From: Gemmatimonadota bacterium
GTDB lineage: Bacteria > Gemmatimonadota > Gemmatimonadetes > Gemmatimonadales > Gemmatimonadaceae
NCBI GenBank assembly: GCA_026387915.1
Contig: JAPLKS010000016.1
Coordinates: forward strand, 1 to 33,467
Direction of reading: 5' to 3'
Length of the DNA: 33,467 nt
Shown here: in pieces, positions 23,974 to 33,467 of the stretch
Position numbering within the stretch: the stretch's first letter is position 1
How the letters are laid out: every line of letters begins with the position of its first letter
Position numbers and translations under genes: made by a program
The notes under the pieces: generated by a model
What the model saw: the letters and a program-made list of their open reading frames with translations, nothing else
The model's database searches: none
What the model was told of the DNA's origin: nothing

Positions 23974-24249
23974 CAAACCCCCAGAGGAACACGGGCTTCA
24001 GCATCCCGGTCACGAAAGCGACCCTCAGCATTCCAAGATCGTCGACGGCACCACCCCTCGGCAATGGAACAGGAGCGTTGTCCCGAGGGGCGCGTGCACA
24101 CCACTACGGGTCATAAGATGAGTTCGTTCAACGAGTTATGGCCGTAGCTCGTACCGTTTCCGTACGGACCCGCATTTGCCGCCAAGCGTCCCGCTCTGCA
24201 ATTTCGAAGATTGGTGCTCGCCTTCCCGATAGCCCTGATGGAGTCTGCA

Positions 24250-26454
24250 ATGCGATTCGCGTTTCGTGCCGCCTTGGGCGGATTTCTTTGTGTCGTAGCG
24301 GCCAGTGCGCTGCCCGCTCAACATCGTGCCCTGACCACCGCCGATTACGATCGTGCGGTGAAGATGCTCGGTCCGTCTGTGACGCCGCTCGTGGTTGGGG
24401 GGACGGTGAACGCCACCTGGCTTCCCGATAATCGCTTCTGGTATGTGAACACCACCGCCGCCGGACGCGAGCAGGTGATGGTGGACCCCGCCAAGAAAGT
24501 GCGCGTGGTTTGTGATGCGCTACGCACGAACTGCCCAGGTGTGCCCGAGATGCCCGCCGGCGGTGGACGCGGCGGCGCAGGTGGACGCGCCGGTGGTGGT
24601 GGCGGACGCGGCGGCGCTGGTAACGCGGTCACCTCGCCCGACGGCAAGCGTGCGGCGTTCATTAAGAACTACAATCTCTGGGTGCGCGAGGTGGCGACGG
24701 GCACTGAAACGCAGCTGACCACCGATGGCGTCAAAGACTTTGGCTACGCCACTGACAACGCCGGCTGGGCCATGAGTGATCGCGCGATTGTGCTCTGGTC
24801 GCCCGACTCCAAGAAGATTGCCACCAACCAGCAGGACGAGCGCCACGTGGGCGAGATGTACCTGGTGGAGACCAAGGTCGGTCACCCCGTGCTCAAGCAG
24901 TGGAAGTATCCGCTCCCAGGCGACAGCGTCATTCAGATGATTCACCACGTGGTGATTGATGTGGACTCCAAGACGGTGGTGCGCCTCAAGGCACCGGCCG
25001 ACCCGCATCGCGGCACCATTGGCGACAACATCACCATGGCCGATTACAACTGGAGCCCCGACGGCTCGCAGTTGGCCTTTGCCTCCACGACGCGCGACCA
25101 CAAGTCCGCGGTGCTCAAACTGGCCGATGCAAAGTCCGGCGAAGTACGCACGCTCTTCGAAGAAACCGTGCCGACGCATTTTGAATCGCGCACCGGCTGG
25201 CGTGTGCTCTGGGAGAGCAAGGAAGTCATCTGGTATTCGCAGCGTGACGACTGGGGTCAGCTCTACCTCTACGACCTCACCAGCGGCAAACCCAAGAACA
25301 AAATCACGAGCGGCGAAGGGCCGGTAGAGGCCATCACCAAAATTGATGAAAAGGCGCGCACCATCTGGTATCAGGCCATGGGCCGCGAGAAGGGGCAGGA
25401 TCCCTATCTGCGCCACTTCTACAGGATTGGACTCGACGGCAAAGGCCCGCAGCTCTCGCTCACGCCCGATGACGGCGATCACACGATGCAAATGTCGAGT
25501 GACGGCAAGTGGATTGTCGATACCTATTCGAAAGTCGACGCCGCACCGGTGACCGTGCTGCGCGATGGCACGGGCAAGCTCGTGATGCCGCTCGAAAAAG
25601 CCGACGTCTCCAAGTTGATGGCCGCTGGCTGGAAGGCGCCGATTCCGTTCAGCGTAAAAGCCGCCGACGGCAAGACCGATATTTACGGCCAGCTCTTCCG
25701 CCCCACCAACTTCGATTCCACCAAGAAATATCCGATCATCAACAACGCGTACCCGGGGCCGCAGTCCGGGAGCGTTGGTGGCCGCAACTTTGCCGCCGCG
25801 CATGGTGACAAACAGGCGCTCGCCGAGCTCGGCTTTGTGGTCGTGTCCATTGACGGACGCGGTACGCCGGGCCGCTCCAAGGGTTTCCACGACGCCTACT
25901 ACGGCGCCATGGGCCGCGACAACACTCTCCCCGATCAAGTGGCAGGGATGAAGGAGCTCGCCAAGCGCTATGCGTGGATCGACATCGACAAAGCCGCGAT
26001 GTGGGGACACTCGGGCGGCGGCTTCATTACCGCCGACGCGATGTTCCGCTATCCGGACTTTTTCAAGGTCGGCATTTCAGAATCGGGCAATCACGACCAA
26101 CGCAACTACGAAGATGACTGGGGCGAGCGCTATCAGGGGCTCCTGCTCGCGGGTGCCGACGGTGGCGCCGACAGCTACAACGTCGAAGCCAACCAGACGA
26201 TGGCGCGGAACCTCAAGGGGCATCTGTTGCTCGCCCACGGCACCCTCGACAACAACGTGCCGCCCGACAACACGTTGCTCGTGGTGGATGCGCTCATCAA
26301 GGCCGGCAAGGACTTTGACCTGTTGATGCTACCGAATCAGGCGCACGGTTACGGCAACGCATCCAACTATATGATGCGCCGCCGCTGGGATTACTTCGTG
26401 CGCTGGTTGCTCGAGATGGATCCGCCCAAGGAATACGAAATCAAGGCGCCCTGA
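24250..26454 (+). CDS. Secreted S9-family (DPP IV-like) prolyl oligopeptidase
   Basis: This 734-residue serine peptidase has a signal peptide (cleavage near LPAQ). An N-terminal beta-propeller (DPPIV_N, ~50-490) with WSPDGSQLAF and similar blades is followed by the alpha/beta hydrolase domain with nucleophile Ser588 (GHSGGG), Asp667 (LDNNVPPDN) and His699 (QAHGYG). Family members release dipeptides after proline from the N-terminus. A Gly/Arg-rich low-complexity loop (~102-125) interrupts the early propeller, like the one in the M28 peptidase. ATG 24250 has GGAG six bases upstream; an earlier start at 24211 would bury the signal peptide. It is probably periplasmic and takes part in peptide scavenging with the M28 enzyme. 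Confidence 0.94.
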   Translation: MRFAFRAALGGFLCVVAASALPAQHRALTTADYDRAVKMLGPSVTPLVVGGTVNATWLPDNRFWYVNTTAAGREQVMVDPAKKVRVVCDALRTNCPGVPEMPAGGGRGGAGGRAGGGGGRGGAGNAVTSPDGKRAAFIKNYNLWVREVATGTETQLTTDGVKDFGYATDNAGWAMSDRAIVLWSPDSKKIATNQQDERHVGEMYLVETKVGHPVLKQWKYPLPGDSVIQMIHHVVIDVDSKTVVRLKAPADPHRGTIGDNITMADYNWSPDGSQLAFASTTRDHKSAVLKLADAKSGEVRTLFEETVPTHFESRTGWRVLWESKEVIWYSQRDDWGQLYLYDLTSGKPKNKITSGEGPVEAITKIDEKARTIWYQAMGREKGQDPYLRHFYRIGLDGKGPQLSLTPDDGDHTMQMSSDGKWIVDTYSKVDAAPVTVLRDGTGKLVMPLEKADVSKLMAAGWKAPIPFSVKAADGKTDIYGQLFRPTNFDSTKKYPIINNAYPGPQSGSVGGRNFAAAHGDKQALAELGFVVVSIDGRGTPGRSKGFHDAYYGAMGRDNTLPDQVAGMKELAKRYAWIDIDKAAMWGHSGGGFITADAMFRYPDFFKVGISESGNHDQRNYEDDWGERYQGLLLAGADGGADSYNVEANQTMARNLKGHLLLAHGTLDNNVPPDNTLLVVDALIKAGKDFDLLMLPNQAHGYGNASNYMMRRRWDYFVRWLLEMDPPKEYEIKAP

Positions 26455-26481: not shown

Positions 26482-26518
26482 CCGTCCGGGAGAGAACTAC
26501 GGCTTCTCTCCCGGACGG
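26482..26518. terminator. Convergent hairpin overlapping the acylase stop codon
   Basis: The arms CCGTCCGGGAGAGAA (26482-26496) and TTCTCTCCCGGACGG (26504-26518) form a perfect 15-bp stem with a 7-base loop. The right arm encodes the last residues of the acylase and its TAG stop (26497-26499) lies in the loop. No U-tract follows on either side, so it is a stem of uncertain terminator efficiency serving two convergent genes. Confidence 0.65.
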
Positions 26519-28743
26519 TATCGCATTTGGGCCTGCGCGACGACGTCTTTTTCGGTGTATGCCACGGTCTTGAGTTCCCCGCGGGCGAACATCGCGGCTT
26601 GATCAGCGTGCCAGCGCGATTCCGGACGCGGGCTCTCGCCATACGCGAGCACCGAGTACGCGTGCGGCACATCCGTGAACTCCACCGCGAGCACCCAACC
26701 ATCGCCGCCGTTGGCGGCGAACTTGCCGTCGCTCGTCCGTTCAAACTGTAGCACACGAAAACAACCTTCGGCGCCGGTGCAGCCGCCCACGGGCACATCC
26801 ACCGTGCCGCGGCGCACGCGATGCACGTCGCCCCACGCCACGTCGTAGGAGCCGTACCGACGAGCGGTTTCACTCACGGCCCAGGCAAACGATTCCGCCG
26901 CGCGCGCAGCATCCGCGAGACCATACGGTGTTTTGAGCGGATCGGCGGCCGACCACGCCTTGGCAAAGCGCAACGAATCGGGTTTGCCGTTGCCGTAGCG
27001 TTGCCACCATACCTCAAAGAGCATCGCGCCCTTGCTGCTGGCGGCGGCACTGTTGTTCCACTTCTCCAATAGCGCGAGCGCGGCGGCCACGTCGCCGGTG
27101 GGGTGCGCGGCGCGCACCGCAGTAATGAGATCGGGCTTCACGCGGTCCGCGAGTAGCATCCGATAATCGTGCTTCATGCGCACCACATCATCCAAGCTCA
27201 CCTTGGTGTCGCCGCCGACAATATCGAGCGCCAACTGACTCCGTAGCGAGAACGACGGCTTCTCGAAATTCGGATACGCGTTGGTCGTATCAATGCCGCT
27301 CCGCACATTGGTGAAGTGCGGCGAGCTGTTCTCGTTGTGAACGTAGCCGCCTTTGGGGTTGAGGAACTGCGGCAGTGAATCAAAGGGCACGTAACGGGTC
27401 CACGTTTCGCGCGTCTCGCGCACGGCAACGGCCACCGTGTCGCCGCCCGAAACATGCGGCAGCGCGGGGAGCGCGGCGTTCCACACAAAAAAGATATTGC
27501 CCGCACGGTCTGCATAGGTGAAGTTCGACGTCAGCCGCCCGCGCAGCTTCATCGCTTCCTTCCACTCGGCGAGCGAGTTGGCGCGCATCATCCGCAAAAA
27601 CTGCTCACCGCCGCGGTACTCGCCGTCGCCTGCGGTTTTAACCACATAGATTTTGCCGTCGGCTCGGTGAATCACTGGCCCGAGCTGCGTCCACCAACTC
27701 TCGCGCGTCTCCGAGGAGAAGGCGCGGCCATGGCGAAACACCACCGTGTTGAGTTCGCGGGTCAGCGGGAGGGAGGTGCCGTCCAGGAGATAATGGTCGG
27801 GCATCGCCGGATCAGCCTCCAGCGCGTAGATCTCGCTCAATCCCTGTGCGTTGTTGGTGGTGGACCAGCCGAGGTTTCGGTTGAAGCCACCGACTACGGC
27901 AAAGGGGCCGCCAATGCGAAAATCGCCGTAGAAGTCGAGCACGCCGGGCACGGTCATATGCGCTTCGTAGTAGCCGGCGCTCCACGCGAGGTGCGGATTG
28001 CGAAGCAAAATGGCACGCCCGCTCTTGGTGCGGCTGGGCGCAAAGGCCCAGGCGTTTGAGCCGACGTTGTCGTTGCGCAGGGCGTCGGCGTTCGTTTGCG
28101 CGGCGGCGTCGTCCGCGGAGCTTGCGTCGGTCGGCCGTTCGGTGCTGCGCGAGGGACCCGCGCCACGCGATCCGCGCGTCCCACGCGCCGAGTCGCGTGC
28201 GGTGGCTGCTTCGAGGCGAGTTACAAACGCCTGCGCGGCCGCCCACGCCGGATCGCCAATATCGAGCGCCGCCACGTCGTAGCCGCTAAAATCGACAGGG
28301 AAACCCTTGGGGTATTCGTCCGGATGCAGGCTCACATAGCGGTTGATTCCCGCCGCGAAGCCGTCGTAGATGTCGCGTGTGTACTGCTCGAGTCGCGGGT
28401 AGTTCGCCACGGCCAGCGCACGCTGATGTTGATTGACGAAGTCCGACGCCATGCTGTCGCGTCCAAACACCCGCCCCATCTCGGCGCGAGCCCGTAGCAC
28501 ATTGATCGCCGTACGGGGACCGTAGTCTTCGAGCTGCAGCCAAGCGAGCGCGTACCCTGCGGCTCGCACGTTTTCGGCGCGAATATGGGGCACACCATAC
28601 GCGGTGCGAATGATCTCAACCTGCCGCCACAGTTCGTCCGGCTGGCGCCGAGCGGCAGTGAGGGAGAGGGCCGTGATGGCAATCAGCAGGGGGGCAATCG
28701 TGGCGAAGGCACGACGCGTGGAGCGGGCATGGAATAAACGCAT
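26497..28743 (-). CDS. Penicillin acylase-family Ntn hydrolase (AHL/penicillin acylase-like)
   Basis: This 748-residue precursor has an N-terminal hydrophobic signal (~12-30), an alpha-subunit region with EIIRTAYGVPHIRAENVRAAGYALAWLQLEDY, a low-complexity spacer rich in Arg, Ser, Ala and Asp (~184-225), then the autoproteolytic site Gly228-Ser229 in NVGSNAWAFAPSRTKSG, where Ser229 becomes the beta-subunit N-terminal nucleophile. RNPHLAW and later NNAQG-type residues follow as in the family. Members hydrolyse amides such as penicillin or acyl-homoserine lactones; which one is used here is unknown. It is periplasmic. It begins 8 bp after the usher-like gene stop, so it is probably the last gene of that operon. 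Confidence 0.92.
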   Translation of the reverse strand: MRLFHARSTRRAFATIAPLLIAITALSLTAARRQPDELWRQVEIIRTAYGVPHIRAENVRAAGYALAWLQLEDYGPRTAINVLRARAEMGRVFGRDSMASDFVNQHQRALAVANYPRLEQYTRDIYDGFAAGINRYVSLHPDEYPKGFPVDFSGYDVAALDIGDPAWAAAQAFVTRLEAATARDSARGTRGSRGAGPSRSTERPTDASSADDAAAQTNADALRNDNVGSNAWAFAPSRTKSGRAILLRNPHLAWSAGYYEAHMTVPGVLDFYGDFRIGGPFAVVGGFNRNLGWSTTNNAQGLSEIYALEADPAMPDHYLLDGTSLPLTRELNTVVFRHGRAFSSETRESWWTQLGPVIHRADGKIYVVKTAGDGEYRGGEQFLRMMRANSLAEWKEAMKLRGRLTSNFTYADRAGNIFFVWNAALPALPHVSGGDTVAVAVRETRETWTRYVPFDSLPQFLNPKGGYVHNENSSPHFTNVRSGIDTTNAYPNFEKPSFSLRSQLALDIVGGDTKVSLDDVVRMKHDYRMLLADRVKPDLITAVRAAHPTGDVAAALALLEKWNNSAAASSKGAMLFEVWWQRYGNGKPDSLRFAKAWSAADPLKTPYGLADAARAAESFAWAVSETARRYGSYDVAWGDVHRVRRGTVDVPVGGCTGAEGCFRVLQFERTSDGKFAANGGDGWVLAVEFTDVPHAYSVLAYGESPRPESRWHADQAAMFARGELKTVAYTEKDVVAQAQMRYRPGEKP

Positions 28744-28751
28744 GCCGAATG

Positions 28752-31484
28752 CTACGGCTTTTCCTTGTTCTCCGGCAACTTTTTGGCGCGAAGATCCATG
28801 CCGTCGCCCACGAAGGTGACGCTGCGGCGCTGCGGCACGAGGCGGAGTTCCACCTCGCGTCGTTCACCTGGGCTGACCACCATCGAGACGCGGTCGTTGG
28901 CAAAGTTGTGGAATGCCGGCAGGTCGCCCGTCCGAATGCGCATCACCCAGGCGCCCGGGGGCACCGTGCCGAAGTCAATGCGTCCCTTTTCGTCGCTCGA
29001 CTGGTACAGCGTGTCCTTGGCGCCTTCGAGGGCCACGAGCACGTTGGGCATCACGCCGGCATCCACCAGCGTGTCGGCACGCGCATTGATGGTGCTGCCC
29101 CCCGCATCGTAGCGGCGCACGACCGCGCGAATGGCGGCACCACGCGTGACCGCCACGTTGAACTCCACCGGCTGCGTGCCGGCGTGGCGCATGTCCACTT
29201 CCGCATTGCCTATCACGAGTTCGCCCACCGTGGGGTGCGAGGCATCGAGTTCGACGCGGTGCAACGCCGGCGGGAGCCCACGAAACATCACACGGCCCTT
29301 GGCGTCGGTGAGTGCGGCGTTGCCATTCATGCGCACGAGGACGCCGGACACCGGCTCACCGGTCAGCGCGTCGCGCACCACACCGATGGCGCGACCGGCA
29401 TCGCGGCTCCGCCCAGTCGGCATGTGCAACGGCATCCGATATTCGGCGAACAATCCGCTTGCGTTCGGCGTGCCGAACACGGCGGTGCGTTCAATGCGAT
29501 GCGCGCGCAGGCCAATCGTCGCGCCATTATCGAAACGATAGTCGAGGCGTACGTCACCCTGACCAAACCAGACGCCTGAGCCGTCGTAATCGCCGAGCGT
29601 CGCGCGCTGCGCCGACACGGCGACGAGCAGTTCCAGCGACAACGGCAGTTTGAGTTGGATATTCGCACCAGAGCTCTGCACGCCGCTCGTGCCGCTTGAC
29701 AGCGTGGCGCCGTAACTCTTGGACCCATACAGGTTGACCACGCCAGCGCTGCCGAAATCGGCGCGCAGGTTGAGCGAAAGTGCGGTGTATTCGCCGTGTC
29801 CCATGAGGAGCCGGTCTTCCGTAAGTCCACGCTCGGCGGACGTCGTCAGGTTGAGGCGCCCGAGGCTCACCGAAGTGGACGCGCGCAAACTGCGCTGATA
29901 CCCGCTGACGGTCACGCTGTCGGTGCTCGCGTCGCGTCGGTCGAGCGTCGTGTATTCAAGCGTGATCACCCCGATCCAGCTGATGCTCGCCGAGGTGGTG
30001 GAGAAGCGCTGCGAGGCCGGCGCGTGCGGCAGCAACGGCGGATGCCAGTCGCGCCCGCTCGCCGACACGTTGAAGGAAAGGCGGGACAGCGGATGATATT
30101 CTACCGACGCATCGCCGACGGTCGCACCTTTCAACGGACCTGCGTACGCCGAATCGGCGCGAATTCCGCTCGCGGAGATCGACCAGCTCTCGCCGCGTGC
30201 AAACAGACGCGCACGCGTGGCCAGCCCAGCGGCGGCCCCGCTGTCGCTACGTGCGCCTTCGAGTTGCAGTGAACCAGCAAACGGCAGTCGCACATCGACG
30301 CCAGTCGTGCCCACCAGTGCCGTGCTACGATTGTTTCCGATGCGTTCCATGGCGCTGCCGAACAAGCGAATCGGCCAGGACGTGGGCATGCCGATGCGAG
30401 CGCCGTACTCCGTGGTGGACTGCGACATCCAGCGCGGGCGCTGCGCGTACGCACCCGTCTCCAGCCAACTCGTAGACAGCCCCACCTCACCGCCGAGTCC
30501 GAGCAGGCCGCTACTCGTCAATGGGGAGAAGGAGAAGACGTTGTCACCCAATTTCAGCTTCCAACGCTCGTTCTCAATGTGCAGCTTGTACTCCTCGCGC
30601 TCACCAAAACCGAACTGCGACCGGCGGTTGGTCGGAGCGGCCAAGGAGAACACCGCGGAGGTGCGGCCATCGGCCAACAGTCCGCCACCTTGAATCACCA
30701 CAGGCGAGACGCCGGACGGGGCACCTGCCGCGCGTACGGCAATCTCAATCGGAACCGTGCTGTAGTTGCCGCCCACGGTCCCGCGCGGGACGAACGTTGT
30801 ATGCTGCGACGCAGAAGCCGAGACCCTGCTGTCATCGCGGTCGCTCACGCGAAGTTCCACGAGATCGTCCACGGCGTTGAGCAGCCCCGGATGCGACATG
30901 CCGCGGACCTCCACAACGGCTGTGCCACCCGGCGGAAGCTGCGCGACGGAGGGCTCCGTGCGCATCCGCACACGTTGCACCGACGTGCCGTCCAGTTCAT
31001 AGGTCGCGGGGAGGTTTCCGTGGTTGCGCACGAGGAACCGTGCGGCAAAGGGCATTCCCGTTGCGACCCAGCCTGGTGCGTCGAGGGGGAGCACTTCCAC
31101 CGCGCGATGCTCGCGCACCGTCACGACGAGTGAGTCGGCCGCAGCCAGATCATCAATACTCGCGCGAAGCACATACCGGCCCGCGGGCGCACCACTCGGC
31201 GTCGCCACACTGAGCAACACCACGTCACGGTCGTGCGGCGCCACGTGCACTTTCACGCTGCCCGTCAGGGCGAGCCAACCGGCGGGAACCGCCAGTGACA
31301 CACGAACGTGGGCCGAATCGCTCCCGTTGTTGCGGAGCGTGAAGGCTGTGGTCATCACATCGCCCGCGTCCGCACTCACGCCCTCGCGCCGCGCCACTCG
31401 GAGCGTCACGCCATCTTGGGCGCGCGCTGTTGAGGCGGCCAAGGCCGCCCACAACAACGCGTGGGCTACGGAGCGAAGGGACAC
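28752..31484 (-). CDS. Usher-like outer-membrane beta-barrel protein
   Basis: This 910-residue protein has a signal peptide (cleavage after ARAQ, ~23). Residues ~25-225 are two Ig-like repeats of the NEW3 type (TLRNNGSDSAHVRVSL, FLVRNHGNLPATYEL). The segment ~275-660 is a run of alternating polar/hydrophobic strands with aromatic ends, as in an outer-membrane barrel, including LGDNVFSFSPLTSSGLLGLGG, which recalls the usher GD...F.G region. The C-terminus (~700-890) has carboxypeptidase-regulatory/usher-plug-like modules (GEPVSGVLVRMNGN...TDAKGRVMFRGLPPA). By length, domain order and position after a chaperone-like gene, I infer an assembly platform for surface fibres. It is not a canonical PF00577 usher. 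The start codon is GTG with a weak ribosome binding site. It lies 20 bp after the chaperone candidate. Confidence 0.7.
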   Translation of the reverse strand: MSLRSVAHALLWAALAASTARAQDGVTLRVARREGVSADAGDVMTTAFTLRNNGSDSAHVRVSLAVPAGWLALTGSVKVHVAPHDRDVVLLSVATPSGAPAGRYVLRASIDDLAAADSLVVTVREHRAVEVLPLDAPGWVATGMPFAARFLVRNHGNLPATYELDGTSVQRVRMRTEPSVAQLPPGGTAVVEVRGMSHPGLLNAVDDLVELRVSDRDDSRVSASASQHTTFVPRGTVGGNYSTVPIEIAVRAAGAPSGVSPVVIQGGGLLADGRTSAVFSLAAPTNRRSQFGFGEREEYKLHIENERWKLKLGDNVFSFSPLTSSGLLGLGGEVGLSTSWLETGAYAQRPRWMSQSTTEYGARIGMPTSWPIRLFGSAMERIGNNRSTALVGTTGVDVRLPFAGSLQLEGARSDSGAAAGLATRARLFARGESWSISASGIRADSAYAGPLKGATVGDASVEYHPLSRLSFNVSASGRDWHPPLLPHAPASQRFSTTSASISWIGVITLEYTTLDRRDASTDSVTVSGYQRSLRASTSVSLGRLNLTTSAERGLTEDRLLMGHGEYTALSLNLRADFGSAGVVNLYGSKSYGATLSSGTSGVQSSGANIQLKLPLSLELLVAVSAQRATLGDYDGSGVWFGQGDVRLDYRFDNGATIGLRAHRIERTAVFGTPNASGLFAEYRMPLHMPTGRSRDAGRAIGVVRDALTGEPVSGVLVRMNGNAALTDAKGRVMFRGLPPALHRVELDASHPTVGELVIGNAEVDMRHAGTQPVEFNVAVTRGAAIRAVVRRYDAGGSTINARADTLVDAGVMPNVLVALEGAKDTLYQSSDEKGRIDFGTVPPGAWVMRIRTGDLPAFHNFANDRVSMVVSPGERREVELRLVPQRRSVTFVGDGMDLRAKKLPENKEKP

Positions 31485-31504
31485 GGGAATATCAGGCGAG
31501 AAAG

Positions 31505-32320
31505 CTAGAAGTTGATCGAGAACTGTTTCGCGAACACCGCGTCGCTGCCGGTATCGGCAAAGAGCACGGCCTTATAGCGCCCAGTCGGAAGGGTGCCGAG
31601 GTCGAAGTGCTGGCGGAGCGAGGAGCCCGGATAGAGCAGGCCGCGCGACTGTTTGGCCTTGGCGCGCAGCGCACCGTCGGCGTCGTACACTTCAATCCAG
31701 AGGATTGGCCGGTACGCACGCTCACCAGCGTTCGCCACATCCACGTCAAACATGGAGGCGTTGGACGACGTGGTGCTCACACGTTCGTTCTCGAACTGCA
31801 CCGTGCGCGCCCCCTGATCGCGCACGTGCGTCGTGACCTGAATGGCATAGCGGATGATCGCACCCACGGCTACACCCGGCGCGCCAGGCTTGGCGGACTC
31901 GGCGCTCTCGTTGGGGGCGCCCTCCACCATGATGGTGCTCCAGTAGCTCCCTGTGAGGGAGTCGCGCGACGGCACAAGCACGGAATACGGCACGACGATC
32001 TGCGTGCCGGCGGGCACGACCACGCGCGTGGTCTGCGGCGTGATCCAGTTGGCATTGGAACGTTGCATCGTGCCCGGCTCGTCGAATGCCGACGTGCCAT
32101 TGGCGAGGAAGCTGTAGTCGGTCTGGAAGATGCGCGCGACCTGCGGCCTCGTGGTCGAGTTGCCAATGACGATGGTGCCGGTGTAGCGATCGCCCGGAAA
32201 CGCGACGCGCTCTTCGACCGTGCTACTCAGCACGGCGATCTGCGCCTGGGCGGCGCGGGGCGCCTGCACGAGGCACAGCACAGCGCCGAGGCTAAGAGAG
32301 GACAGGTGACGACTACGCAT
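31505..32320 (-). CDS. Periplasmic Ig-like protein, candidate pilus chaperone
   Basis: This 271-residue protein has a signal peptide (cleavage near AAQA, ~26) and two beta-rich halves. The first (~30-150) runs VEERVAFPGDRYTGTIVIGNSTTRPQVARIFQ to VVVPAGTQIVVPYSVLVP, the order of a PapD-like N-terminal Ig domain with a conserved basic/polar turn. The second (~170-271) contains MFDVDVANAGERAYRPILWIEVYDADG and ends RYKAVLFADTGSDAVFAKQFSINF. I infer a chaperone that holds the downstream pilin-like products for the usher-like protein. The family may also overlap COG1470-type Ig proteins. It is 11 bp from the pilin-like gene and 20 bp from the usher-like gene on the same strand. Confidence 0.65.
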   Translation of the reverse strand: MRSRHLSSLSLGAVLCLVQAPRAAQAQIAVLSSTVEERVAFPGDRYTGTIVIGNSTTRPQVARIFQTDYSFLANGTSAFDEPGTMQRSNANWITPQTTRVVVPAGTQIVVPYSVLVPSRDSLTGSYWSTIMVEGAPNESAESAKPGAPGVAVGAIIRYAIQVTTHVRDQGARTVQFENERVSTTSSNASMFDVDVANAGERAYRPILWIEVYDADGALRAKAKQSRGLLYPGSSLRQHFDLGTLPTGRYKAVLFADTGSDAVFAKQFSINF

Positions 32321-32331
32321 TGTGGTTTCCT

Positions 32332-32781
32332 TTACGGGGCGAGGGTGACCGTGTATGTCACGGTGCGGGTCTGGGAGGTCACGACGCCGGCCGCAGCGGA
32401 AGCGGTCAGCGTATAGGTGAGCGTTTTGGCCGAGGCCGTCGGACTGTTGATCGTGGTGACGATGTCACGCGTCGTTGTGTCGAGCGTCACGGCGCCCATC
32501 GAGGTGTCCCCGACGTCTACGGCGGCCAAGACAGTGAGGGTAGTACCCGTTGGCATGTTCGAGCTCAGCCGAGCGGTGAGCTTGTACGTGCTCGAGCGGT
32601 CGCGACCGCCGATGTTGTAGCTGGCGACGGAATTCGACACGGGCGTGGGGTTGCTACCGGCCACGGCGCTCTGGATGCGCAACGACGGTGAGCCCGACAG
32701 CGTGACGCTCGATTGCGCGTTCGCTACTCCCGCACCGCAGAACACCGCGGCAGCGAAGAGGGCAGGGCGTCGAAAAGACAT
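32332..32781 (-). CDS. Secreted pilin-like beta-sandwich protein (paralog 1)
   Basis: This 149-residue secreted protein has a signal peptide ending GVANA (~22). The mature part is Thr/Ser-rich with regularly spaced hydrophobic strands: SVTLSGSPSLRIQS, YKLTARLSSNMPTGTTLTV, GAVTLDTTTRDIVTTI, and a terminal TRTVTYTVTLAP. This matches the gene at 32792-33250 position by position, including MPTG, GAVTLD and the final TRT...YT strand. Such proteins could be fibre subunits completed by donor strands, with the N-terminal strand as donor; that is inference. No cysteines. ATG 32781 has GGAG eight bases upstream. 10 bp separate it from the next paralog. Confidence 0.72.
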   Translation of the reverse strand: MSFRRPALFAAAVFCGAGVANAQSSVTLSGSPSLRIQSAVAGSNPTPVSNSVASYNIGGRDRSSTYKLTARLSSNMPTGTTLTVLAAVDVGDTSMGAVTLDTTTRDIVTTINSPTASAKTLTYTLTASAAAGVVTSQTRTVTYTVTLAP

Positions 32782-32791
32782 GGCAGGGCTC

Positions 32792-33250
32792 CTACGGACT
32801 GGTGACGAGCGTGTACGAAATCGTTCGGGTTTGACTGGCGATGAAACTCGCCGTGAGATCAGCGGTGAGCTGGTAGGTAATCGACTTCGACGTGACCGAA
32901 GTGCCGATGCCCGTGACCAGATCCCGCGGTGTGGCGTCGAGCGTGACGGCGCCGAGGCTCGTTCCCCCGCCGAGCGCCACCGCCGTTGCCTTGAGCGTGA
33001 GCCCTGTCGGCATGGCGGAACTGAGTTGTGCGACCAACTTCTTGGTGGTGCCAGTGACGTTGATGACGGTATACGTGGTAGAGCCGTCCGTAGCTGGTAA
33101 CAACGAGGTGCCTGCAACGGATGTTGTGACGCGAAGCGTTGGGGTACCACTCACGCTCATGTACTGAGCGCTGATGGCCTTCGTGGGGAGTAGCAATGTT
33201 GCCACTCCCCACGCGTGAACCATCCGAGTTGTGCAGCCCCTGCGCAGCAT
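32792..33250 (-). CDS. Secreted pilin-like beta-sandwich protein (paralog 2)
   Basis: This 152-residue paralog shares with the neighbour at 32332 the blocks SVSGTPTLRV, KKLVAQLSSAMPTGLTLK, GAVTLDATPRDLVTGI and the last strand SQTRTISYTLV. The signal peptide (cleavage near KAISAQ, ~29) follows a short charged N-terminus; an ATG at 33223 (M10) would give a more ordinary signal, but the ATG at 33250 is 6 bp after the upstream paralog's stop and has AAGGA. Function as for paralog 1. The pattern points to tandem gene duplication within one operon. Confidence 0.72.
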   Translation of the reverse strand: MLRRGCTTRMVHAWGVATLLLPTKAISAQYMSVSGTPTLRVTTSVAGTSLLPATDGSTTYTVINVTGTTKKLVAQLSSAMPTGLTLKATAVALGGGTSLGAVTLDATPRDLVTGIGTSVTSKSITYQLTADLTASFIASQTRTISYTLVTSP

Positions 33251-33256
33251 TGTTCC

Positions 33257-33467
33257 TTACACGCCGCCGGTGATGGTGTACGTCACCACGCGGGTGGTCG
33301 ACGCCACCACGCCGGCCAAAGCCGTTGCGTCGAGCGTATACGTCATCGTCAGGCCGGCGGCATTGACCTTCGTGATGCCGGTGACCAGATCGGCCGCCGT
33401 GGCCGACAGCGACTTCGCGCCACCGCTCGTGCCGCCAGCCGGGGCCGCGAGGGTGACCGAGAGCGTC
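33257..33467 (-). CDS. Third pilin-like paralog (5' end beyond window)
   Basis: Only the last 70 codons are present. They encode a sequence containing ADLVTGITKVNAAGLTMTY and ending VASTTRVVTYTITGGV, aligning with RDLVTGIGTS...SQTRTISYTLV of the next gene. The stop TAA is at 33257-33259, 6 bp before the start of paralog 2, and the phase is open to the window edge. The number of upstream copies is unknown. Confidence 0.75.
   Translation of the reverse strand, partial: TLSVTLAAPAGGTSGGAKSLSATAADLVTGITKVNAAGLTMTYTLDATALAGVVASTTRVVTYTITGGV

Follow-up and report, generated by a model that had tools for sequence, protein, structure and literature searches.

Background

Textbooks describe chaperone-usher pili, which are known chiefly from Proteobacteria. 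The pathway in its classical, archaic (Csu) and alternative (CFA/I and Ecp) forms relies on a three-part gene set of subunits, chaperone and usher, in which the usher carries a large 24-strand barrel, with a plug inserted, between N- and C-terminal periplasmic domains. In the donor-strand polymers that these systems build, the tip subunit lacks an N-terminal extension and the shaft subunits have one. Another large outer-membrane barrel, the MtrB porin of the Mtr complex, is a 26-strand electron conduit that works with cytochromes. Gram-positive bacteria have a separate surface system, WxL/WxLIP, which pairs small secreted WxL proteins with a two-domain binding protein (DUF916-DUF3324). In an AlphaFold2 prediction, a strand of WxLIP completes the WxL sandwich (PMC10599100).

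Here we analyze a locus that resembles each of these systems in part. It lies in a 33,467-nucleotide stretch of DNA from a Gemmatimonadota bacterium (hereafter, “the window”), which is an entire contig, C16, of a 3.58-Mb genome in 23 contigs. The original prediction, made from the letters of the window, had placed an atypical chaperone-usher-like locus at 26497-33467 and raised the possibility of a separate class of fibre or surface-layer assembly. Our analysis indicates, with a probability of roughly 0.7, that the locus encodes a chaperone-usher-like machine assembling surface fibres.

Layout of the locus

Five genes lie on the minus strand from 28752 to 33467: one for a subunit, truncated where the contig ends, two intact ones for secreted subunits, and one each for a 271-aa protein and a 910-aa barrel protein. 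The features are as follows.

33257..33467, minus strand: 3' part of a shaft-type (major) subunit gene; 69-codon open frame with a subunit match, with the remainder on contig C18 (left end)
32792..33250, minus strand: putative minor (tip-type) subunit, 152 aa, with signal peptide and without N-terminal extension (ORF, subunit alignments, phmmer to homologues)
32332..32781, minus strand: putative minor (tip-type) subunit, 149 aa, adjoining the chaperone gene, without N-terminal extension (sequence, subunit alignments)
31505..32320, minus strand: two-domain periplasmic chaperone, 271 aa, of WxLIP/PapD-type fold (EfmWxLIP1 profile match, fold search, profile-profile comparison)
28752..31484, minus strand: 910-aa outer-membrane barrel protein with usher-like domain order (AlphaFold2 pLDDT 86.5; Foldseek FimD 7.2e-12)
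31116..31409, minus strand: N-terminal Ig domain 1 (NEW3), residues 26-123 (PF10633, model strands)
30789..31100, minus strand: N-terminal Ig domain 2, residues 129-232 (weak PF22544, model strands)
29409..30764, minus strand: predicted 26-strand beta-barrel, residues 241-692, no plug insert (strand count in the model)
29193..29396, minus strand: C-terminal Ig-like domain 1 (CarboxypepD_reg), residues 697-764 (PF13620, model)
28833..29168, minus strand: C-terminal Ig-like domain 2, residues 773-884 (model strands)

The genes are tightly packed. Gaps of 6 bp separate the cut major subunit (stop 33257) from the 152-aa subunit (ATG 33250), 10 bp the latter (stop 32792) from the 149-aa subunit (ATG 32781), 11 bp the 149-aa subunit (stop 32332) from the chaperone (ATG 32320) and 20 bp the chaperone (stop 31505) from the barrel gene (GTG 31484). 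The tandem genes that had been described, running in one direction 6-20 bp apart, are thus borne out on the minus strand, with at least three subunits, the first one cut. The range first given for the system was too wide: it occupies 28752-33467, and 26497-28743 on the minus strand encodes a penicillin amidase homologue (PF01804, 7.8e-109) that shows no sign of belonging. The penicillin amidase gene (ATG 28743, minus strand) follows the barrel gene after 8 bp and is a possible operon neighbour; as a component of the system it was dropped for want of support, and it is absent among the recurrent neighbours listed. Convergent with the locus, a secreted S9-family prolyl oligopeptidase / DPP IV-like peptidase is encoded at 24211-26454 of the window, on the plus strand.

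Because the contig stops at 33467, just 69 codons of the first subunit fall within the window. The left end of contig C18 likewise has a subunit match and has 29 identical bases in common with the window end, and reading through from C16 into C18 gives a full subunit with a signal peptide and an N-terminal extension (QTATQTVTFQVDAINQI). Judged by sequence, C18 plausibly completes the gene. As the joint falls in a gene type that is tandemly repeated among relatives, copies may be missing through collapse. An OmpR-type response regulator is encoded divergently on C18 (L153:465-1154), just upstream of the subunit operon. As several Gemmatimonadota relatives also have such regulators close to their subunit genes, a two-component system may control the operon.

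A predicted 26-strand barrel in usher-like order

A large barrel in the 910-aa protein is well supported by an AlphaFold2 model built with 68 aligned members (signal peptide present, mean pLDDT 86.5, pTM 0.60). The original prediction had located it at about residues 275-660; the model places a barrel there, flanked by periplasmic domains in usher order, but extends it to 241-692. The NEW3-type N-terminal domains (PF10633, 3e-08) and the regulatory-type C-terminal domain (CarboxypepD_reg, PF13620, 1.3e-09) were confirmed as first described.

As in ushers, the predicted large barrel thus lies between N- and C-terminal periplasmic domains, with two Ig domains on each side. Against the PDB, Foldseek matched the protein to FimD (7.2e-12) and, ranked only slightly lower, to other ushers, interspersed with ciliary Ig-repeat proteins. 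In VIA-align the best match was MtrB (Z 20.3 over 408 residues, rmsd 5.4); PapC and FimD came lower, at Z 15.8, amid TonB receptors and porins. A search for the usher family PF00577 came up empty in the window protein and in the further members scanned, ten diverse and eight divergent, and no profile comparison with ushers was significant (at most 14% for five E. coli ushers and at most 16% for EcpC). The usher kinship of the barrel is therefore one of domain order and fold, not of sequence. Unlike the ushers, moreover, the window barrel is predicted to have 26 strands, its N-terminal domains are NEW3-type, and no plug insert is seen in the predicted structure, where the longest interval between barrel strands is about 15 residues.

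These results bear on whether the locus is a genuine, if highly divergent, chaperone-usher system of the archaic type, its barrel an usher that has drifted beyond recognition and lost the plug. The domain order NTD-barrel-CTD1-CTD2, the usher structures among the Foldseek matches and weak matches of CTD1 to CooC_C, shown by two barrel members, speak for such an origin, as does the reach of divergent chaperones to PapD-type chaperones (see below). The strand count of 26 rather than 24, the missing plug, the lack of PF00577 in every member scanned and the low profile scores speak against it, and we regard it as unlikely, although it is the alternative that we take most seriously.

The MtrB match allows another reading, in which the barrel belongs to a porin, of MtrB type or otherwise, with unrelated secreted proteins as mere neighbours. 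Yet the window barrel has two Ig domains on either side, which MtrB and other porins do not, and no cytochromes were noticed among the genes read at the locus. The strict linkage of barrel, chaperone and subunit genes across phyla, described below, already disfavours a chance neighbour, and we give this reading very little credence.

Two side observations concern barrel proteins elsewhere. The C-termini of three of them (L040, L042 and L046) carry an apparent LysM-type segment, read by eye, which suggests peptidoglycan anchoring of some barrel proteins. At L039:5677-9906 the barrel frame runs without a stop into what is, again by eye, isocitrate dehydrogenase-like sequence, either a fusion or an assembly error.

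A chaperone tied to pilus chaperones and to WxLIP

The 271-aa protein itself has no Pfam match, PF00345 included. An 81-sequence profile of its family, searched against the PDB, found EfmWxLIP1 of Enterococcus faecium (5e-07) over the second half of domain 1 and all of domain 2, and 33 of the 81 members have weak WxLIP_PGBD matches. For the fold, we used a fused subunit-chaperone model (locus L049, with the stop read as glycine) in which the chaperone part has pLDDT mostly above 90. The fold search returned WxLIP of Enterococcus at Z 17.4, followed by the pilus chaperones CfaA (13.0), FimC (12.2) and CsuC (12.0). As for donor-strand pairing, on which the original prediction staked itself, the expected donor loop of the chaperone is not a strand in the same model, and the interface is unreadable.

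Profile-profile comparison (hhalign) points the same way. Against eight Gram-positive WxLIPs, taken from WxL clusters in plasmid records, the family scored 95.2% (2.5e-08), and 95-97% over the comparisons; against the pilus chaperones of the E. coli K-12 operons, the main family scored 9%. Weaker matches from Gemmatimonadota and Bacteroidota, for which ten stretches were opened, provided a set of divergent chaperones, and nine of these ten stretches also hold a divergent barrel relative. The divergent chaperones scored 95.5% against WxLIP and 89.5% against the E. coli pilus chaperones (193 columns, 2e-06; reversed controls 0.2%). At Pfam cut-offs, the member from L155 passes PapD_N and those from L159, L160 and L164 pass WxLIP_PGBD. 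The family is thus tied to both pilus chaperones and the Gram-positive WxL-binding proteins. As the main family alone misses the E. coli chaperones, its link to the pilus chaperones comes through the divergent members. It differs from WxLIP at its end: the Gram-positive WxLIPs examined have a hydrophobic C-terminal segment, whereas the window chaperone stops at the second domain, without a C-terminal transmembrane helix.

Two kinds of subunit

The subunit alignments show two kinds of protein, with and without an N-terminal extension. We measured the segment from signal cleavage to the first core strand in all subunit profile matches, with signal peptides and cleavage sites assigned by a simple, crude score. 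Its median length is 6 residues in 38 chaperone-adjacent subunits and 20 in 97 subunits farther upstream, and the extension of about 20 residues in the latter has alternating hydrophobic residues (T-V-T-F-Q-V). By analogy with chaperone-usher pili, extension-less and extension-bearing subunits fit the pattern expected of donor-strand tip and shaft subunits, and the extension may act as the donor strand.

The subunit profiles matched no PDB or Pfam family, so that, in contrast to chaperone-usher systems, the subunit families here are unnamed. Profile comparison gave nothing significant against the WxL profile (at most 26%) or the E. coli pilins (at most 9%); a similarity of the C-terminal strand is only suggestive. 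A second family of small secreted proteins occurs at 32 loci; in almost every example listed, its gene directly precedes that of the chaperone. At two loci of a Bacteroidota group (L159:3808-11657 and L164:2914-11600), several closely similar subunit genes accompany a divergent chaperone and barrel, and a downstream protein of 477-478 aa with a subunit-like end and no Pfam match is a candidate large tip adhesin.

The kinship with WxLIP raises the question of whether the locus is instead a diderm form of WxL-like display, in which the 271-aa protein binds and stabilises single subunits at the cell envelope, no polymer forms and the barrel serves as an export pore or anchor. WxLIP is the closest relative of the chaperone by sequence and fold, and at several Gram-positive loci a small WxL gene lies just upstream of WxLIP, as a small secreted protein gene does here. 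However, the W-x-L motif occurs in 1 of 67 subunit rows, with no significant match to the WxL profile, and the chaperone lacks the membrane helix. Several extension-bearing subunit copies at many loci suggest polymers, and an outer-membrane barrel and diderm hosts likewise set the system apart from WxL/WxLIP. We therefore consider display without polymers improbable. The predicted insertion of a WxLIP strand into the WxL sandwich (PMC10599100) fits strand lending by the related chaperone in the fibre-building reading.

Distribution and gene linkage

A search of 298 Gemmatimonadota genomes gave about 18 long or contig-cut matches to the barrel protein; the other matches were short, mostly covering the carboxypeptidase-like domain only, and were left uncounted. 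Wherever enough flanking sequence is available in these relatives, the 271-aa protein and subunits stand beside the barrel. In the species-genome collection, the barrel alone retrieved no related loci; the chaperone alignment retrieved 232, of which 80 were kept for gene-set counts and searched with profiles from Gemmatimonadota members. A barrel gene was found at 78 of the 80 and subunit genes at 75. The distance from the chaperone end to the start of the barrel match is no more than 150 bp at 67 of the 78 loci and no more than 600 bp at 77; one locus (L091) has a different gene order. Of the two barrel-less loci, L057 is on a contig that ends at the chaperone and L124 has about 2.2 kb of downstream sequence. 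Given the same gene set at 78 of 80 distant loci, the arrangement in the window is not due to chance.

The record labels of the loci include Gemmatimonadota, Bacteroidota and relatives, Ignavibacteria, Rhodothermia, Armatimonadetes, Acidobacteriota, Gamma- and Deltaproteobacteria, Spirochaetales, Planctomycetota, Aminicenantes, Riflebacteria, Opitutia, Orenia and Acetomicrobium; two further loci are labelled Clostridia or Clostridiales and are taken as labelled. The host groups possess an outer membrane, and by these sequence matches the system is spread over a dozen or so diderm phyla. Cultured hosts include Thiocapsa roseopersicina, Thiococcus pfennigii, Draconibacterium sediminis and Orenia metallireducens. 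Of 249 Gemmatimonadota genomes, 2 have a PF00577 usher match (one above cut-off); there is none in the window's own genome, nor in 20 system-carrying genomes of other phyla (with E. coli positive as a control).

Discussion

Our computations recover a conserved gene set, two kinds of subunit, predicted folds and, with a crude score, signal peptides. From these we infer strand lending, an assembly order, translocation and fibre formation. Signal peptides would take the subunits into the periplasm, where the 271-aa chaperone would hold each one, probably supplying the strand that its beta-sandwich lacks, and hand it to the N-terminal Ig domains of the 910-aa protein. The 26-strand barrel would be the exit pore, and the two C-terminal Ig domains would hold the base of the growing fibre. 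The chaperone-adjacent subunit, without an extension, may form the tip, and the extension of about 20 residues on the other subunits may occupy the groove in the subunit before it.

The original proposal, that fibres may be assembled here by a class of machine separate from but comparable to chaperone-usher, holds up well computationally on the barrel prediction, the usher domain order and the ushers among the Foldseek matches. A chaperone fold common to WxLIP and the pilus chaperones, and two subunit kinds that fit donor-strand polymerisation, add to it. The system has a fair chance of deserving a class of its own. The full claim, that the class is distinct in having a pore that is not an usher homologue, in linking PapD-type chaperones with Gram-positive WxLIP through its chaperone and in extending over many diderm phyla, we put forward tentatively, at a little below even odds. 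We found no published description of the system in open-access full text, and no library used here names it as a unit, Pfam included; the putative fibre class is so far unnamed and unrecognised.

If about a dozen diderm phyla have a parallel system, it would mean that many bacteria thought to be fibre-less may have such fibres. Its chaperone joins two surface systems that have been studied separately, pili and WxL, in one family, which makes their common origin testable. If the class is indeed distinct, strand-lending assembly would either predate the diderm and monoderm envelopes or have passed from one to the other.
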